DNA from: Acidobacteriota bacterium
GTDB taxonomy: Bacteria; Acidobacteriota; Terriglobia; Acidiferrales; UBA7541
Assembly: GCA_021818865.1 (NCBI GenBank)
Contig: JAKASX010000012.1
Location: 1 to 57,171, forward strand
Direction of reading: 5' to 3'
DNA: 57,171 bases
The stretch's first letter is position 1; each line of letters begins with the position of its first letter. Positions 37,967-46,947 of this stretch are shown here, one piece after another. Both the position numbers and the translations under genes were made by a program. The notes under the pieces were generated by a model, which did no database searches, was not told the DNA's origin, and was given only the letters and a program-made list of their open reading frames with translations.

Positions 37967-37995
37967 TTGACAATGGGAATTGACAAGGGTAGTGT
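37967..37995 (+). promoter_or_regulatory. Candidate promoter of the first TonB-dependent receptor
   Basis: TTGACA at 37967-37972, 17-bp spacer, TAGTGT at 37990-37995. A second TTGACA at 37980-37985 overlaps the spacer. The first one aligns with the promoter of the sister receptor at 42460, relative to the conserved leader block. Confidence 0.45.
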
Positions 37996-38071
37996 CTGTC
38001 GAATCATTCGTCTCTGTTCTGTTGGGGCGACGGCTCAGAAACGCTATTTTTCGTTTGTCGAAGTGGGCGAG

Positions 38072-38328
38072 TTCACAGGACCGAAGTCGGGAGGGGGGCG
38101 GGTTCCTGTGTTTGGGGCGAACGGTAGTCGGGCGGGTAGCATCTTCGCATCCGATCGAGGCGGGGCGGCCTCTGCGGCTCGGTTGCGCCCGTCGCTTTCG
38201 GCTGAATTCCGCTCGGCAAGCAGTCATCTCCTCGCATCTTTTCCCGAATATTGCGGCATCTTGGCATCTTTCCTTCTTGGGGAATGTGCGAAAGCAATCG
38301 GCCTTCGGGCCTTTGCGGAGGTGTCTGC
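38072..38328 (+). promoter_or_regulatory. Conserved, probably structured leader of the first receptor
   Basis: The block at 38072-38140 has CACAGGA (38074-38080) and TCCTGTG (38104-38110) as complementary arms around a GGGAGGGGGGCGG loop, then GGCGAACG and CGGGCGGGTAGC. The same order of elements occurs at 42566-42640. A second hairpin, GGCC-TTCG-GGCC (38300-38311), lies just before the GGAGGTG ribosome site. The distance from the block to the start codon (~219 nt) matches the sister leader (~226 nt). A regulatory RNA is inferred. Confidence 0.5.
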
Positions 38329-41300
38329 GTGCGAAAGTGGCGTTCGGTTTGGCTCACTTTTTTAACTGTTAGTTTGCTCGCGTTGTTCCCCGTTGGTCTG
38401 TTCGCCCAGTCGGCAACCACGGGGATGGTGCAAGGTATTGTTGCCGATCCCACGGGCGCCGTGGTGCCTGGCGCAAAGGTGACGCTCACCAATAAGTCCA
38501 CGGGCGTCGCCCTCACCAGCAGCACCGACGCGACCGGACGTTTTCTCTTCCCCGCCGTCAATCCCGGCGATTACACCGTCCAGGTCATCGCAACCGGATT
38601 CCAGCGCTTCGTCGTCGCTCAGCTGGCGGTTTCGGTCACCAAAACCTACACGATCCCGGTCAAACTGAAAATCGGCACCGCGTCACAGACCGTGACGGTC
38701 AAGGAAATCGCCGGCGCCGAACTCCAAACCACCAACGCCTCCATCGGGACCACCCTCGGCGGAAACACACTCCAATTTCTTCCCACCGCTCAGCGCAACG
38801 TCAGCTCGCTCCTCAGCCTGCAGCCCGCCGTCGCCCCGATGATCGTCGGCAGCGACGTTCGCGGCGGTCAGGTGGCCGGCGCCGATAGCGACCAGACCAC
38901 TTTCCTCGTTGACGGCGGCGACGCCACCAACGACCTGGAAGGCACCGGCAACTACGAAGCGATTCCCGGCCAGACCCAACCCGCGCCGGCCATTGCCGTG
39001 AACGTGGAAACCACGCAGGAATTCCGCGTGGTGGACGCTGGCCCGACGGCGGGGCTAAACCGCTCGTAGGGTGGCCAGATTTCCATCGTCTCCAAGCACG
39101 GCACCAACCAGTTCCACGGTTCCGTCTACGAGTACTACACGGGAAGCACGCTCGGCGCCAACAGTTGGTCCCTCAATCGCATTGGCCATCCAAAGCCGCA
39201 CCAAGTCAATAATCGTTTCGGCTTCACCTTTGGCGGTCCGCTGCTCAAGAACAAGCTCTGGTTCTTCGGCAACTACGAAGGCCGCCGTTTCCGCCAAAGC
39301 GCCACCGTGGGCACCGATGTCCCCACCGCCATGGCCCGCCAGGGCACCCTGCAATTCAAGGACGCCTCCGGAAACGTCGTTGCTTACAACCTGGCCACCT
39401 CCACTCTCTGCGGCACCTCCGGCACCACCCTCTGCGATCCGCGCGGCATCGGCATCGATCCCACCATCCAGACCTATTGGGGCAACGAGCCGCTGCCCAA
39501 CGTACCCGGCACCGGCGACGGCCTCAACAGCGAGGAATATCTGCAGTCCATGGCCGAGCCCGACAACGAAAACTACGGCCTGCTTCGTCTCGACTACGCC
39601 ATCAATTCGCGCTGGCATTTCTTCGCCACCTACCGCGAACAGAAAATCCTCTTCAACACCGGCGATCAATTCGATATCACGCCTGGCAGCCAACATCTGA
39701 TCAGCGCCACGCCCGTTCAACCGCATTTCGCCACGTTCATGCTCACCGGCCAGATCGGCTCCCACCTCACCATGCAAACCCATGGCTCCTATATGCGCGA
39801 TTGGTGGGGATGGAATCGCGCCTCGCTCGCGAATCCTTCCAACGTAACCGGCCTTGGCGGCACCCTCCAAGTTTCGGGTGAAGGACAAACGGGCAACGCC
39901 GGCGCAAGCAAGCCCTGGGCCGACCCCATCAACTTCAATACGCAGCAGGGCCGCGCCCGCACCTGGGATGGCCGCGATTGGTACCTTGCCGAGGACGATA
40001 GCTGGCTCCACGGCAACCACACCTTCCAGTTCGGCGGCGCCTGGTATTTCTGGAACATCCAGCACGTCCGCACCGACGACGTTCTCGGCGGTCTCACCAG
40101 CGGGCCCATCTATTGGGTCAGCTCGATCAATTCCTCGAGCGGCTCCTACGTCAACACGCCTTCCAGCGAGCGCCCGCCCACCTGCAGCAGCACGCTCACG
40201 TCCAATTGCCTGCCCAGCAGCCAAGTCACCGTCTGGAATGCGATGTATTCCGCCATGCTCGGTCTGGTGGATCACTCTTCCCAGGTCGCCACGCGCGACG
40301 GCAATTTCAACGCGTTGCCGCTCGGCTCGCCGCTTGTCGACAACGTCCATGTCGGCGCCGTCTACACCTACTGGCAGGACATCTGGCAGATGAAGCCCAC
40401 GATCACCTTCACTTACGGGCTGAGCTGGGGCCTCCAGTTCCCGCCCAAGGAGATCAACGGCAAGCAGGCCCTCCAGCTCTTCTCCGCTACCGGCCGGCCT
40501 GTCTCCAACATCAACGCCTATTTCCAGGCGCGCCAGCAGGCGCTCGACGCGGCCAATTTCTCCGCCCTCCAGGGCCTCGACAACTTCAACTTCGCTCCCA
40601 TCGGCTCTGTTTCAGGCTACACGCGTCCGGTGAACACCTATTGGGGTTCCGTCGGGCCGCGCGTCGCCATCGCCTGGCAGCCGCCATACCACAACCGTTT
40701 CTTCGGCAACCGTGAGACCGTCATCCGCGCCGGCTACTCGATCGTGTGGAATCGCACGAACGCCGTCGGCCTCGTCATGACGCCTCTGCTCGGCACCGGC
40801 CTTGCGCAGATCATCGGCTGCAACGCACCCACCGAGGCCAATGGCGCCTTCAGCGCGTGCAGCGGCGGGAGCACGGATGCCACTAACGCGTTCCGGATTG
40901 GCCTTGACGGCAGCTCGCTGCCCTTGCCAACCCCTTCGAGCGGCTACCCGGTCACGCCGACGAGCCCCTTCGGCTCGCACTACGGCTTCAACCTCGATCC
41001 CGCCATCACCCCGCCGTGGTCCCACAACGTCACCTTCGACATCCAGCGTTCCTTCCCGCACAACTGGCTGGTGGATGTCGGCTACATCGGCCGCTTCAGC
41101 CGCAACCTCGAAAACGGCGGCGATACCAACTCCTCCGATATGTTCGCCAGGGACCCCATTTCCGGCCAGACGCTGGCGCAGGCCTTCGACGCGGTTTCTC
41201 AGTTCCTGCGCGGCGGCGGCAAATGCACCACCACCGGGGGAATTGTTTCCTGCCCGGGTTTGGCGCCGCAGCCCTTCTTTGAAAACATGGCTGTCGGCAC

Positions 41301-42297
41301 GAGCGGCAACCCCAACTATTGCCAATCCAAGTACGGCACCTCTTGCACCGACGTCGCCGCCGCGCGCCAGCCGGGCTACGCCATCAATGGCGCTCTGGCC
41401 AACTTCATGGACTTCGGCTACGACCTGATCGCTTACCAGCCCATCGACCCGATGCAGTTCAATTTCAACTTCTGGAACTTCGGCGGCGGCTGGGCCAACT
41501 ACAACGCCGGCTTCATCTCCGTCCACAAGGCGTTCAGCCAAGGGTTGAACTTCACGTTCAATTACACCTGGTCCCACTCCCTGGGCACTCAGGGTCTCAA
41601 CCAGCAGTACATCATCTATGGCAACCCTTCGCCCTTCGACCAGTCCACGGGCTATGGCAGTGCCTCGTTCGACCGGCGCAACGTCTTCAACGCGACCTGG
41701 TATTACGTGCTGCCCTTCGGTAAGGGCCAGCGCTTCTCCACCAGCAACGCGTTCTTCAACCACATCATCGGCGGTTGGTACAGCTCCGGCATCTGGACCT
41801 GGCAATCCGGCCTGCCCATCTGCATCGGCGCCGATGGAAACTACGGCGATCCTTCCGGCGGTGCCGTCAACAACACCTGTGCGCAAAGCACGATGTCCCT
41901 CTTCGGCCTTTCCGGCCAATACTCAAACGTCGCCGGCTCGAACGGCATCGGCACCAACGGCGATCCGGCCAAGGGCGGCAGCGGCATCAATTTCCTTGCC
42001 GATCCGGCCGCTGTCTACGCCTCTCTGAGCCGTCCCCTGCTGACGCAAAACCTGCGGCCGTTCGACCCCAATTTTGCCGCGCCGTCGTCGTGGAACGTGG
42101 ACCTCTCGGTTGGCAAGAATATCGCCTCCACCGAACGCTACAAGGCCTACTTCACCGCCGACTTCTTCAACGCGTTCAACCTCTTCCAACCCGCCAATCC
42201 CACGCTCGATATGAACGTCCCATCCGCCTTCGGCGTTGTTACCGGCCAGGCGAACAGCCCGCGCACCATCCAGCTCGGGTTGCGGTTCGAGTTCTAA
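38329..42297 (+). pseudogene. TonB-dependent receptor (Oar-like) interrupted by an in-frame amber codon
   Basis: Start GTG at 38329 after GGAGGTG, aligned with the sister gene's ATG. Signal peptide (VWLTFLTVSLLALFPVGLFA), carboxypeptidase-regulatory-like domain (~30-115; VQGIVADPTGAVVPGAKVTL), plug domain (~125-245; DQTTFLVDGGDATNDLEG), then a TAG at 39067-39069 after LNRS. The same phase continues without any other stop for ~1,075 codons (GGQISIVSKHGTNQFHGSVY onwards) to the C-terminal IQLGLRFEF, whose last Phe is the outer-membrane assembly signal. The sister gene has CAG (Gln) at this spot (43583-43585), so one C-to-T change explains it. Without readthrough only signal, regulatory and plug parts (246 aa) are made. 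Full length would be ~1,322 aa. Recent decay, or a sequencing error, is likely. Confidence 0.88.
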
Positions 42298-42459
42298 CCT
42301 TAGCCTCTCGCGGCCCCGGCCTGCCGGGGCCGGGGAGCCTCTTTTAGGGGCAGCACGATGGCGGCGCGGCTCGCCGCGCCGCCATCTCCTTCTTTTCCAT
42401 CGCAAAACCCACCCTTCGGCCCGGTTTCCCCGTCCCTATGTTCGCTCGGAAATTCCCAC
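42298..42459. other. Segment between the two receptor genes
   Basis: Holds the terminator of the first receptor (42312-42345) and then ~110 bp with no gene or clear signal, before the promoter of the second receptor. Confidence 0.4.
42312..42345 (+). terminator. Terminator of the first receptor gene
   Basis: GGCCCCGGC-CT-GCCGGGGCC, 15 bases after the stop codon, then GGGGAGCCTCTTTT. The hairpin is almost identical to the one after the sister gene at 46841, including the flanking TAACCTTAGCCTCTCG. Confidence 0.7.
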
Positions 42460-42488
42460 TTGACAGCCAGGGTCCCAAGGGCTACCTT
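42460..42488 (+). promoter_or_regulatory. Promoter of the second TonB-dependent receptor
   Basis: TTGACA at 42460-42465, 17-bp spacer, TACCTT at 42483-42488. The predicted start near 42495 gives a ~340-nt leader before the ATG at 42833. Confidence 0.55.
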
Positions 42489-42565
42489 CTACCCCGACAA
42501 CAGTATCCCGGGCTTTGGTGGGGCAGCGGCCCAGGTAATGTTTAAATCGTTCACCCAAGGGCGGA

Positions 42566-42832
42566 TTCACGGGACCTAAGTAGAAGTGGTGGGGGCGGAA
42601 TCCTGTGGTAAAGGCGAACGACATTTGGCCGGGTAGCTGCTTTTCCGTGGGTTGGCGTGCGGCGCTTCTTCTCTGGTCGTCGCAGCCAGCTGCTCCGGCC
42701 GTGTCTTGCACGGTGCATACGCTACCCCTTCTTCTTTCTCACCTCGCCGTAGTTCCTGGCGATTCGGTTCCCATCATCTCCTCTCGGGTGTGCGCAAGCT
42801 AACGGGCTTCTTGCCCGTCCGGAGGTGTTTGC
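42566..42832 (+). promoter_or_regulatory. Conserved, probably structured leader of the second receptor
   Basis: Arms CACGGGA (42568-42574) and TCCTGTG (42601-42607) pair with one G-T wobble around a GGTGGGGGCGG loop, followed by AAGGCGAACG and GGCCGGGTAGC. Before the ribosome site, ACGGGC-TTCTT-GCCCGT (42802-42818) replaces the GGCC-TTCG-GGCC hairpin of the first leader: different bases, same pairing. GGAGGTG then precedes the start. Function unknown. Confidence 0.5.
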
Positions 42833-45800
42833 ATGCATAAGAGGCGCGCTGCATTGCTCGCCTTTGTCTCTGCCTGCCTGTTGGCACTCTTCCCGATCGG
42901 TTTGCTCGCTCAGTCGGCAACCTCGGGCGTAGTGCAGGGCACAGTGATGGATCCCACCGGGGCGGTTGTGCCTGGCGCAACGGTGACGCTCACCAATAAA
43001 TCCACTGGCGTCACGTTGAGCACCAGCACGGACGCGACGGGGCGCTATCTGTTCCCCGCCGTCAACCCCGGCGATTTCACTCTGAAAGTGACCGCAACCG
43101 GCTTCCAGACGTTCGTCGTCGCGCAACTCACGGTTGAAGTCACAAAAGCCTATACGGTCCCGGTGAAGCTGAAGATCGGCACCGCGTCACAGACGGTGAC
43201 GGTCAAGGAAGTCGCCGGCGCCGAACTCCAGACCACCAACGCTGCCATCGGCACGACGATCAGTGGTAGCACGCTCCAGTTCCTGCCCGAAGCCCAGCGC
43301 AACGTGGCCGCGCTGCTCAGCCTTCAGCCGGCCGTCGCGCCGGAGACTGTGGGCGGCACGGTGCAGGGCGACGTCATGGGCGGGCAAGTTGCCGGAGCCA
43401 ATAGCGACCAGACCACCTTCCTCGTTGACGGCGGCGACGCCACAAACGATTTGGAAGGCACTGGCAGTTACATCGGCATTCCCGGCCAGCCACAACCGGC
43501 TCCGGGCATCATGGTCAACACCGAGGCCACGCAGGAATTCCGCGTGGTTGACGCCGGCCCGACGGCCAACATGAACCGTTCGCAGGGCGGCCAGGTTTCC
43601 ATCGTTTCCAAACACGGCACCAACCAATTCCACGGTTCCGTGTACGAGTACTACACGGGCGACGCGCTTGGCGCCAACAGCTGGACCAACAACACCTACG
43701 GCGTTCCAAAGCCTCACACCGTGAACAACCGGTTCGGATTCACCTTTGGCGGTCCGCTGCTCAAGAACAAACTATTCTTCTTCGGCAACTACGAAGGACG
43801 CCGATTCCGGCAGAGCGCTTCGTTCAGCACGGACGTGCCCACGGCGACGGCCCGGCAGGGCATCTTGCAGTTCCAGGACCAAGCCGGAAACGTCATCGCC
43901 TACAATCTGGCCACTTCAACCCTCTGCGGCGCCAGTAACAACCAAGCCTGCGATCCTCGGGGCATCGGCATCGACCCGTTGATTCAGCAGTATTGGAGCA
44001 ACGAGCCGCTGCCCAATCAGCCGGGTTCGGGCGACACATATAACAGCGTCGGCTTCGTTCATTCGTATGCCGAGCCGGATAACGAGAATTACGGTATGCT
44101 TCGGCTCGACTACACGATCAATTCCCGCTGGCACCTGTTCGGCACGTATCGCGAGCAGAAAATTGTCTTCAGCACTCCAGACCAAGTCGACATCATCCCT
44201 GGCCAACAGCAACTGATCAGCGCGACTCCGGTACAGCCGCACTTCGCCACCTTCATGCTCACCGGCCAGATCGGCTCCCACCTCACCCTCCAGACGCATG
44301 GTTCCTACATGCGCGACTGGTGGGGATGGAACCGCGCAATCCCCGGGAACCCCTCGAACGTGACGGGTCTCGGCGGCGTGTTGCAGGTTTCCGGCGAAGG
44401 CCAGACCGGCAGCGGCGGCTCAACCCATCCGTTTGCCGATCCGATCAACTTCAATACCCAGCAGGGCCGCGCCCGCACGTGGGACGGCCGCGACTGGTAT
44501 CTGGCTGAAGACGCCAGTTGGCTGCACGGCAACCACACGTTCCAGTTCGGCGGCGCATGGTATTTCTGGAACATTACGCACATCCGTACTGACGACGTTC
44601 TGGGCGGCTTGACCAACGGCTTGATTTACTGGGTCGAAAACGGGAGCCCGAACAGCGGAAGCTTCGTCAACGTAACGGCCTCTCAGCGGCCGCCCACTTG
44701 CGCGAACTCCAGCCAAACGAATTGCCTGGCGCCCGGGTTATCCTCCATCTGGGATGCGGAATACTCGTCGATGCTGGGCCTGGTGGACCACTCCTCGCAG
44801 ATTGAAACCCGGAACGGCCAGTTCCAGGCGAATCCGCTGGGCACACCGCTCGAAGACAACGTTCACATCGGCTCCGTGTACACCTACTGGCAGGACATCT
44901 GGCAGATGAGGCCGACGATCACATTCACCTACGGCTTGAGCTGGGGTCTCCAGTTCCCGCCGGAGGAAATCAACGGCTTGCAATCCATCATGGAATATTC
45001 CGCGAACGGGCAACCGTTTTCCAACCTCAACGCCTATTTCCAGGCACGACAACAGGCGATGGATGCGGCCAATTGGACGGGGATCAATGGTCTCAATAAC
45101 TTCCAGTTCGCCCCGATCCACGCCGTTCCTGGGATCTCGCGTCCGCTAAGCACCTACTACGGCGCGCTCGGCCCGCGCGTGGCGATCGCCTGGCAACCGC
45201 CATACCACAACCGCTTCTTCGGCAACCGTCAGACCGTCATCCGCGCCGGCTACTCGATCGTGTGGAACCGCACGAACGCCGTCGGACTCGTGATGACGCC
45301 TCTGCTCGGCACCGGGCCGACGCAGATCGTTGGCTGCAACGGACCCTTGATGAGCGGGGCATGCAGCAACGGGAGCACGGACGCCACTAACGCGTTCCGG
45401 ATCGGCATTGACGGCACATCGCTGCCTCCGCCGGCACTGACGAGCGGCTACCCGGTCTCCGTGGCTGCTCCGTTCGGAAGCGCCTACAACTTCGGGCTCG
45501 ACTCGGCGTGGACGCCGCCGTACTCGCACAACGTCACGTTCGACATCCAGCGTTCGTTCCCGAACAACTGGCTGGTTGACGTCGGCTACATCGGGCGCTT
45601 CAGCCGCAATCTCGAGCAGGGCGCCGATTTGGGCGCTTCGGACATGTTCGCCAAGGATCCGATTTCGGGCCAGACCTTGGCACAGGCATTTGACGCCGTC
45701 TCCCAGTACCTCCGGGGCGGCGGGACTTGCACGGTGCCGAACCCGAACCTTCCCGCGAGCGCCACGAACGTGGCCTCGTGCCCCGGCCTTGCGCCGCAGC

Positions 45801-46828
45801 CCTTCTTCGAGAACATGGCTGCGCCGGGGACGGGCGGACCTGCCTACTGCCAATCGACCTATGGCAGCTCTTGCACGGCGGCAGCTGTGTACACCGATCC
45901 GAGCGACGCTTTTAACGGCAGCTTGGGCGGATTCATGGAGTTCAACTACGACTTCATTTCCCAGCAATCGCTGGATCCCCTCCAGTACGTCTTCAACTTC
46001 TATAACTACGGCGGCGGCTGGGCAAACTACAATGCCGGGTTCATCTCGGTGCACAAGGCGTTCAGCCAGGGACTGAACTTCACGTTCAACTACACTTGGT
46101 CGCACACTCTGGGCACCCAGGGACTGGACCAGCAGTACATCATTTTCGACAACCCGTCGCCTTACCAGCCCTCGACCGGCTACGGCACCGCGCCCTTCGA
46201 CCGGCGAAACGTTTTCAACGCAACCTGGTACTACGCGCTGCCCTTCGGCCACGGCCAACGGTTCGCGTCGAGCAATTCGTTCATCAACCGCATCATCGGC
46301 GGTTGGTACTCGTCGGGAATCTGGACGTGGCAATCGGGCTTGCCGCTGTGTATCGGCGCTGACGGCAACTACGGCGACCTCGCCGGGGGCTCGACGATCG
46401 CCGGCACCTGCGCGCAGAGCACGATGTCTCTCTTCGGCCTCTCCAGCCGGCACGACAACATCAGCGGTTCGAGCGGCATCGCAACGGCCGGCAATCCCGC
46501 AAACGGCGGCAGCGGGATCAATTTCTTTGCCAATCCCGTCGCCGTCTTCAACAGCCTCAGCCGACCGCTGTTGACCCAAAACCTGCGACCGTTCGATCCC
46601 AACTTCGTTGAACCATCGTCGTGGAACGTGGACCTCTCGTTCGGCAAGAACATCATCGCCACCGAACGCTACAAGGCCTACTTCACCGCCGACCTCTTCA
46701 ACGCGTTCAACATCGTGCAGTTCGCCGATCCGTCGCTCGACATGGGCAACGCCGCAGGGTTTGGCGTGGTGACCGGTCAAGCGAACCAGCCGCGTTCGAT
46801 TCAGCTCGGCTTGCGTTTCGAGTTCTAA
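42833..46828 (+). CDS. TonB-dependent receptor, Oar-like, with carboxypeptidase-regulatory-like domain
   Basis: 1331 aa, start ATG at 42833 with GGAGGTG upstream. Signal peptide (RAALLAFVSACLLALFPIGL, cleavage at LLAQ), carboxypeptidase-regulatory-like Ig domain (~32-118; VQGTVMDPTGAVVPGATVTL, SLFPAVNPGDFTLKVTATG-type strands), plug (~125-250; DQTTFLVDGGDATNDLEGTG; NMNRSQGGQVSIVSKHGTNQ), and a very large beta barrel (~300-1331) ending IQLGLRFEF with the terminal Phe. It would import a large or scarce substrate, probably a carbohydrate or peptide polymer, using TonB energy. Substrate not readable. It is a close tandem paralogue of the interrupted receptor before it, with conserved leader and terminator. 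Confidence 0.93.
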   Translation: MHKRRAALLAFVSACLLALFPIGLLAQSATSGVVQGTVMDPTGAVVPGATVTLTNKSTGVTLSTSTDATGRYLFPAVNPGDFTLKVTATGFQTFVVAQLTVEVTKAYTVPVKLKIGTASQTVTVKEVAGAELQTTNAAIGTTISGSTLQFLPEAQRNVAALLSLQPAVAPETVGGTVQGDVMGGQVAGANSDQTTFLVDGGDATNDLEGTGSYIGIPGQPQPAPGIMVNTEATQEFRVVDAGPTANMNRSQGGQVSIVSKHGTNQFHGSVYEYYTGDALGANSWTNNTYGVPKPHTVNNRFGFTFGGPLLKNKLFFFGNYEGRRFRQSASFSTDVPTATARQGILQFQDQAGNVIAYNLATSTLCGASNNQACDPRGIGIDPLIQQYWSNEPLPNQPGSGDTYNSVGFVHSYAEPDNENYGMLRLDYTINSRWHLFGTYREQKIVFSTPDQVDIIPGQQQLISATPVQPHFATFMLTGQIGSHLTLQTHGSYMRDWWGWNRAIPGNPSNVTGLGGVLQVSGEGQTGSGGSTHPFADPINFNTQQGRARTWDGRDWYLAEDASWLHGNHTFQFGGAWYFWNITHIRTDDVLGGLTNGLIYWVENGSPNSGSFVNVTASQRPPTCANSSQTNCLAPGLSSIWDAEYSSMLGLVDHSSQIETRNGQFQANPLGTPLEDNVHIGSVYTYWQDIWQMRPTITFTYGLSWGLQFPPEEINGLQSIMEYSANGQPFSNLNAYFQARQQAMDAANWTGINGLNNFQFAPIHAVPGISRPLSTYYGALGPRVAIAWQPPYHNRFFGNRQTVIRAGYSIVWNRTNAVGLVMTPLLGTGPTQIVGCNGPLMSGACSNGSTDATNAFRIGIDGTSLPPPALTSGYPVSVAAPFGSAYNFGLDSAWTPPYSHNVTFDIQRSFPNNWLVDVGYIGRFSRNLEQGADLGASDMFAKDPISGQTLAQAFDAVSQYLRGGGTCTVPNPNLPASATNVASCPGLAPQPFFENMAAPGTGGPAYCQSTYGSSCTAAAVYTDPSDAFNGSLGGFMEFNYDFISQQSLDPLQYVFNFYNYGGGWANYNAGFISVHKAFSQGLNFTFNYTWSHTLGTQGLDQQYIIFDNPSPYQPSTGYGTAPFDRRNVFNATWYYALPFGHGQRFASSNSFINRIIGGWYSSGIWTWQSGLPLCIGADGNYGDLAGGSTIAGTCAQSTMSLFGLSSRHDNISGSSGIATAGNPANGGSGINFFANPVAVFNSLSRPLLTQNLRPFDPNFVEPSSWNVDLSFGKNIIATERYKAYFTADLFNAFNIVQFADPSLDMGNAAGFGVVTGQANQPRSIQLGLRFEF

Positions 46829-46840
46829 CCTTAGCCTCTC

Positions 46841-46877
46841 GTGGCCCCGGCCTGCCGGGGCCACGGAGCCGATTTTT
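46841..46877 (+). terminator. Terminator of the second receptor gene
   Basis: GTGGCCCCGGC-CT-GCCGGGGCCAC, an 11-bp stem 12 bases after the stop codon, then GGAGCCGATTTTT. The outer pairs differ from the sister terminator at 42312 but still match, which supports a functional stem. Confidence 0.75.
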
Positions 46878-46947
46878 CGGTGGGGCAGCATTGGGGCGGC
46901 CCGGATGTTCGGGCCGCCCTCATTTATTTTGGGGAGCGAGGCCCGTC

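Follow-up and report, generated by a model that had tools for sequence, protein, structure and literature searches.

Two receptor genes and their predicted transcripts

The window, which is the whole stretch of 57,171 nucleotides analyzed here (contig C119), carries two tandem paralogous genes for Oar-like TonB-dependent receptors (TBDRs), R1 and R2, that are 76% identical. Acidobacteria encode dozens of Oar-like receptors per genome, and their ligands and regulation are largely unknown. Each gene has a promoter-like sequence ahead of it and a pair of terminator-like hairpins behind it:

37967..37995, + strand: predicted R1 promoter, TTGACA-17-TAGTGT, identified by sequence and conserved in the G003 orthologue
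38329..42297, + strand: R1, Oar-like TBDR, GTG start, in-frame TAG at 39067
42310-42420: terminator-like hairpin pair after R1, with GGGGCAGC between the hairpins at 42347..42354 (+)
42460..42488, + strand: predicted R2 promoter, TTGACA-17-TACCTT, identified by sequence
42833..46828, + strand: R2, Oar-like TBDR with PF13620 and PF25183, ATG start
46840-46935: terminator-like hairpin pair after R2, with GGGGCAGC between the hairpins at 46882..46889 (+)

The TAG at 39067 is the single in-frame stop of R1; R2 has CAG at this position, the frame of the G003 orthologue is open, and the ~1.3-kaa frame of R1 is otherwise intact. A recent nonsense mutation, an assembly error and pseudogenization are alternative explanations. 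The arrangement of GGGGCAGC between two terminator-like hairpins is kept 3' of the R2 orthologue in G003, and the hairpin pairs behind R1 and R2 could act as a sponge or give rise to a processed 3' RNA.

Both predicted promoters are strong and sigma-70-like, are conserved in orthologues, and lie 70-80 nt 5' of a sequence block common to the two leaders. From these promoter-like sequences, transcription is predicted to start near 38000 (R1) and 42493 (R2), giving 5' UTRs of ~330 nt. Because the predicted transcript start lies ~70-80 nt upstream of the block, we place the block within the predicted 5' UTR. The parts of the two leaders, all on the + strand, are as follows:

38024..38031, +: GGGGCGAC, the R1 equivalent of the GGGGCAGC element in degenerate form, by alignment
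38052..38059, +: P1 5' strand CGTTTGTC of R1, by alignment and pairing
38074..38080, +: P2 5' strand CACAGGA of R1, by alignment and pairing
38104..38110, +: P2 3' strand TCCTGTG of R1, by alignment and pairing
38116..38123, +: P1 3' strand GGCGAACG of R1, by alignment and pairing
38162..38169, +: GGGGCGGC, G-U-wobble variant of GGGGCAGC, in the best predicted duplex of the candidate small RNA loop with R1
38299..38311, +: hairpin directly 5' of the R1 Shine-Dalgarno (SD) sequence, a second conserved leader piece absent from the original prediction
38317..38323, +: SD sequence GGAGGTG of R1, occluded in the predicted fold
42520..42527, +: GGGGCAGC, the TBDR-leader element of R2, 5' of P1
42548..42555, +: P1 5' strand CGTTCACC of R2, by alignment and pairing
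42568..42574, +: P2 5' strand CACGGGA of R2, by alignment and pairing
42601..42607, +: P2 3' strand TCCTGTG of R2, by alignment and pairing
42613..42620, +: P1 3' strand GGCGAACG of R2, by alignment and pairing
42802..42818, +: hairpin ACGGGC-TTCTT-GCCCGT directly 5' of the R2 SD sequence, conserved

Structure and conservation of the leader

The elements of the block occur in identical order in both copies (38072-38140 and 42566-42640), letter for letter as originally described, and aligning the R1 and R2 blocks gives a score 8.4 s.d. higher than order-1 shuffles do. The outer arms, CACAGGA/TCCTGTG in R1 and CACGGGA/TCCTGTG in R2, pair as had been proposed and correspond to helix P2 (CACRGGA/TCCYGTG). 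P2 is enclosed by an outer helix that the original prediction overlooked, P1, in which CGTTYRYC pairs with GGYGAACG; the GGCGAACG element described there is the 3' strand of P1, and the 5' strand begins 18-20 nt before the block. The block does start at 38072 and 42566 as first delimited, but the functional unit begins further 5' and takes in the P1 5' strand and the GGGGCGAC/GGGGCAGC element. Its distance to the start codon is similar in both copies, although the earlier figure of ~220 nt is better given as a span from ~257-267 to ~190 nt before the start.

Across seven leaders, the 15 base pairs of P1 and P2 are 89.5% standard pairs, versus 32-45% when the strands are slid. Two-sided changes were observed in 4 of the 15 (G-C/A-U and A-U/U-A in P2; A-U/G-C and C-G/G-U in P1), G-U intermediates are present, and the shuffle control for P1+P2 pairing gave 14-42 of 500. 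These compensatory changes, moderate against shuffles and drawn from seven related sequences of one genus, lend moderate support to the proposed P1/P2 fold. Single-sequence folds and minimum free energies of the leaders are not unusual for their composition and no better than shuffles, and P2 has a low probability in the full-length ensembles of several leaders. In R1-type leaders the linker is predicted to pair with the whole SD sequence. The best SD-linker duplexes of all six leaders are only modestly above shuffles (4-15% each), so that translational control through SD occlusion is a matter of inference.

The insertions and deletions within the block bear on what kind of signal it is. A leader peptide (uORF) attenuator was rejected: the block contains indels of 2 and 4 nt that break any reading frame, and no common start or stop is present. 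Variable P2 arm spacing (22-26 nt) also disfavors a DNA-level site, such as a transcription-factor operator just downstream of the promoter, which we regard as improbable. The block is indeed close to the predicted promoters, and palindromic operators such as GTAAACGTTTAC do occur in certain other TBDR leaders of the genus; but G-U pairs replace palindrome bases, the arms do not conform to a palindrome of fixed spacing, and GGGGCAGC itself is non-palindromic and lies 12-90 nt after the -10 box or near the start codon. A G-quadruplex was set aside upon inspection by eye, which indicated two-quartet potential only. The TBDR leaders L110, L184, and L182 have a palindrome, GAGTAAACGTTTACTC (AAACGTTTACTTT in L182), just after the -10 box that is like a LacI-family operator.

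Receptor homologues were gathered from 40 relatives, their leaders were read, and a covariance model was built from six leaders. The leader is present in seven copies in four species of a single acidobacterial genus (62-115 bits). Orthologues in two sister species carry it (two copies in G003 and two in G002; the sister genomes are MAGs YF1.bin127 and FK1.bin65), and the covariance model found it in G001 (62.8 bits), downstream of the same kind of gene, as judged from reading the locus, on a contig that ends before the receptor. Outside the genus, a covariance search of 89 family and 399 class genomes returned nothing credible, and those weak matches that were inspected are coding sequence without the block. 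A DNA similarity search matched the sister species alone. Rfam 15 gave no match at the gathering threshold over the window, and the R1 leader had none even at E<=5; the original prediction had likewise matched the block to no known riboswitch class.

Identity between R1 and R2 is 66% in the P1-P2 block, 55.5% at fourfold sites, and 42% in the linker, so conservation beyond ordinary spacer drift, as first claimed, is borne out. The bases between block and start codon were also said to differ; this applies to the R1 and R2 linkers but not to R1 and its sister-species orthologue, where 95% identity indicates that the linker is constrained too in the R1 lineage. The whole leader of the R1 orthologues is more conserved than synonymous sites. 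Between R2 and its sister copy, identity is 100% in the GGGGCAGC segment, 96% in the pre-SD hairpin, and 85% in P1-P2, falling to 69% in the linker and to 57% at fourfold sites. As R1 and R2 are tandem paralogues, the block might have no function and be left over from a recent receptor-gene duplication, a very improbable reading that the data already contradict, so that the refuting case named in the original prediction, conservation limited to recently duplicated receptors, does not apply: the block exceeds both linker and fourfold identity, it persists in four species while fourfold sites are near saturation, and the closest paralogue (G003:C16/G000:C45, 79-84% identical) has an unrelated leader without the block or a matching promoter. 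This last case suggests leader replacement between receptor genes. The G000:C45 and G003:C16 leaders carry GGGGCAGCGATC.

We conclude that the block is best explained as a conserved cis-acting RNA, a reading that is partly supported by predicted transcription, helix-preserving changes, variable spacing, and conservation above linker and synonymous sites. The ligand sensing that was originally raised as a possibility did not fare as well: nothing points to a ligand, and a ligand-sensing riboswitch formed by P1/P2 is unsupported. The same genome does contain a true cobalamin riboswitch (RF00174, 90.6 bits; L108 1896-2067, -) before another PF13620 receptor-like gene. The R1/R2 leaders resemble it in being structured leaders of an outer-membrane receptor-like gene, but match neither RF00174 nor any other Rfam family. 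They are likewise comparable to orphan motifs such as Acido-1 and Solibacter-1, lineage-restricted structured RNAs found by comparison (PMC2864571). Weinberg et al. (2010) listed those two as not cis-regulatory, and TonB is absent from the main text (PMC2864571); the R1/R2 leader, for its part, has no Rfam match.

P1/P2 could also be a stand-alone cis regulator that senses a ligand or protein and controls access to the SD sequence, with GGGGCAGC as a separate feature. We consider this unlikely. A long conserved leader with an extended hairpin, a conserved internal loop, and a G-rich loop would suit such a regulator, as would the occluded SD of R1-type folds and conservation throughout the R1-orthologue leader; against it, the leader is limited to one receptor subfamily in one genus, has no Rfam relative, accompanies no biosynthetic gene, and shows anti-SD pairing only slightly above shuffles. 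A second type of structured TBDR leader was observed in L102, L166, L175, and L173 (G000:C19, G003:C181, G004:C17). Its outer stem, ACUCAGCG/CGCUGAGU against CCUGACG/CGUCAGG, appears compensatory by eye, its inner hairpin is UUCUCC..GGGGAACG, and GGGCAGC adjoins the closing stem.

The GGGGCAGC element in receptor leaders

The word TGGGGCAGC is common to R2 and two diverged receptor leaders, and for this reason the leaders of 101 PF13620 receptor-like genes from five genomes of the genus (86 of them non-redundant) were compared. Aside from the -35 box and SD sequence, the standout word is GGGGCAGC. It occurs in 21 of the 86 non-redundant leaders, with 22 sense and 1 antisense occurrences, and all 101 leaders contain 26 sense and 1 antisense, versus 3 of each further upstream. 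Non-TBDR upstream regions of the same genomes contain it in 0 of 421 cases (78 kb), or 1 of 639 in an enlarged set (117 kb), and in 695 kb of coding sequence it occurs 13 times in sense and 12 times in antisense orientation, with background genes called by a simple longest-ORF rule. Many TBDR leaders hence share a common sense-strand site, as expected of an sRNA regulon (21/86 versus 1/639). With 163 sites in 3.97 Mb as the density across the genome, the excess in TBDR leaders is 28-fold (Poisson 2e-24; Fisher 7e-20). Genome-wide avoidance of GGGGCAGC is not supported, at 163 sites versus 187 for the reversed control. The element is specific to the genus, with no occurrence in 66 TBDR leaders of other genera from the family, order, and class; about three quarters of TBDR leaders within the genus are without the exact word.

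A search for the promoter followed by TGGGGCAG yielded eight matches in the five genomes: seven precede TBDR genes and the eighth precedes the G001 leader at the contig end. The reversed control yielded none. Longer promoter spacing combined with GGGGCAGC was near chance and mostly non-TBDR, and a simple EM motif search of the leaders did not separate the signal from composition. Among one-base variants, only the G-U-compatible GGGGCGGC is also clearly enriched (6 versus 0). GGGGCAGC is kept in the orthologous leaders C72/C219, C45/C16, C151/C54, and R2/C120b. It is located just 5' of P1 in R2, G002:C34, and G002:C24; R1 and its orthologue have GGGGCGAC in that place, and R1 has GGGGCGGC at 38162. 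Only one of the first 30 genome sites, L329 (G000:C20:18163), is a sense-strand GGGGCAGC upstream of a non-TBDR gene; it lies 43 nt ahead of a gene that by eye encodes a tricorn-like protease and is also present in G003.

The strand bias and leader specificity of GGGGCAGC suggest an RNA-level signal acting in trans. Because other receptor leaders share the linear GGGGCAGC and not the hairpin, a trans-acting RNA or protein is favored over a metabolite sensor, and the strand specificity and exactness of the word suggest pairing with an RNA that contains GCUGCCCC. An RNA-binding protein might read GGGGCAGC instead, or the word might be a processing or pausing signal. An exact 8-mer confined to the sense strand of TBDR leaders, and present again between the terminators after R1 and R2, would be compatible with this; the sharp, seed-like 8-mer, the enrichment of its G-U-compatible variant, and the existence of a conserved complementary loop speak against it, and we judge it possible but rather doubtful.

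A candidate small RNA and possible receptor control

The complementary loop, UCGGCUGCCCCG, belongs to a 74-nt intergenic terminator hairpin in G000 (G000:C19, ~97270) that has a U-rich tail and precedes an MFS (DHA2/EmrB-like) gene. It was located through its seed, among the first genome-ordered G000 sites, and its apical loop displays GCUGCCCC, the exact complement of GGGGCAGC. The hairpin is present in three of the five genus genomes: G003 has it at the synteny-predicted place (98.6% identical), and G004 has it behind different upstream genes (88% identical). The loop is invariant in all three, while the stem varies, including a U-A to C-G exchange. The hairpin was not found in G001 or in the ~15-20% of G002 that the search covered.

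When the 74 nt were scanned in 8-mers, only the complement of GCUGCCCC was strongly enriched in TBDR leaders (22 versus 0), with 10 versus 4 and 7 versus 3 for the adjacent windows. When 8-mers across the entire loop were compared with G-U pairs allowed, 31 of 300 shuffled 12-nt loops equal the real one, so the signal is confined to the exact GCUGCCCC window. In ~1.2 Mb searched, no other GCTGCCCC site has a strong hairpin-plus-T-run, and a search for CTGCCCC plus a T-run had no match in G000 and one in G004 that is the orthologue of the G000 hairpin. We put the probability that such a seed match arises by chance in a terminator at perhaps a few tens of per cent. The hairpin has no clear promoter and might instead attenuate the MFS gene.

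A search for a promoter with GCTGCCC had as its sole recurrent match a conserved ~170-nt RNA, which is not the partner because its GCUGCCCG sits inside the closing stem. This RNA-like element lies behind TTGACA-TATACA (G000:C51:16941+, L203; also L201, L208, L209, and L200) and is nearly identical in all five genus genomes with differing flanks. It folds far better than shuffles (z -3.9), with a long closing stem ACCUGAGG/CCUCAGGU. Rfam returned no match at E<=1 (L203) or E<=0.5 (L201), and the element is possibly a divergent 6S-type RNA.

Taken together, we propose, with a probability of roughly 0.6, that the block is the core of a conserved ~330-nt 5' UTR shared by the mRNAs of one TBDR subfamily of the genus, and that GGGGCAGC in this leader is recognized in trans by an RNA-level regulator, most probably a small RNA whose seed is GCUGCCCC. 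The predicted promoter would give rise to a leader that exposes GGGGCAGC near its 5' end to this RNA (or to a protein) and that folds as an extended hairpin of P1, an internal loop, and P2 with its G-rich loop. GGGGCAGC would be the recognition site, with the apical loop of the terminator hairpin before the MFS gene as the leading candidate partner. Pairing in the cell would alter leader folding, translation, or stability, such that the expression of many receptors would be raised or lowered together. P1/P2 and the pre-SD hairpin would form the receptor-specific part of the switch, setting the architecture of the leader.

A similar arrangement is known from Caulobacter crescentus, in which the SisA-D (alpha-R8) sRNAs, with CrfA as their sponge, use one seed to bind several TBDR mRNAs; on CCNA_03574 the SisA site is close to the start, and a G-6C change abolishes the pairing (PMC12559287). 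The likeness consists of one C-rich seed, a G-rich target in several TBDR mRNAs, and receptor levels that would be set together. In contrast, the SisA seed is UUUCCUCCCU and the one proposed here GCUGCCCC, and the SisA site is near the start, whereas GGGGCAGC is often far 5'. We liken the candidate regulon to SisA/CrfA in its working and claim no membership.

More tentatively, a genus-specific sRNA with a GCUGCCCC apical-loop seed might control about one quarter of the Oar-like receptors through GGGGCAGC in their 5' UTRs, with a structured leader added in the R1/R2 subfamily. If true, Acidobacteriota would gain, as far as the literature searched shows, their first known receptor regulon of this post-transcriptional kind, with a defined regulon and a defined seed that are open to a compensatory-mutation test. 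Its restriction to one genus and absence from sampled TBDR leaders elsewhere would imply fast turnover and a very recent regulon birth. A shared RNA-level signal would demonstrate that receptor-wide RNA control is not limited to Proteobacteria and Bacteroidota, and would offer a way into the question of how acidobacterial receptors are chosen.
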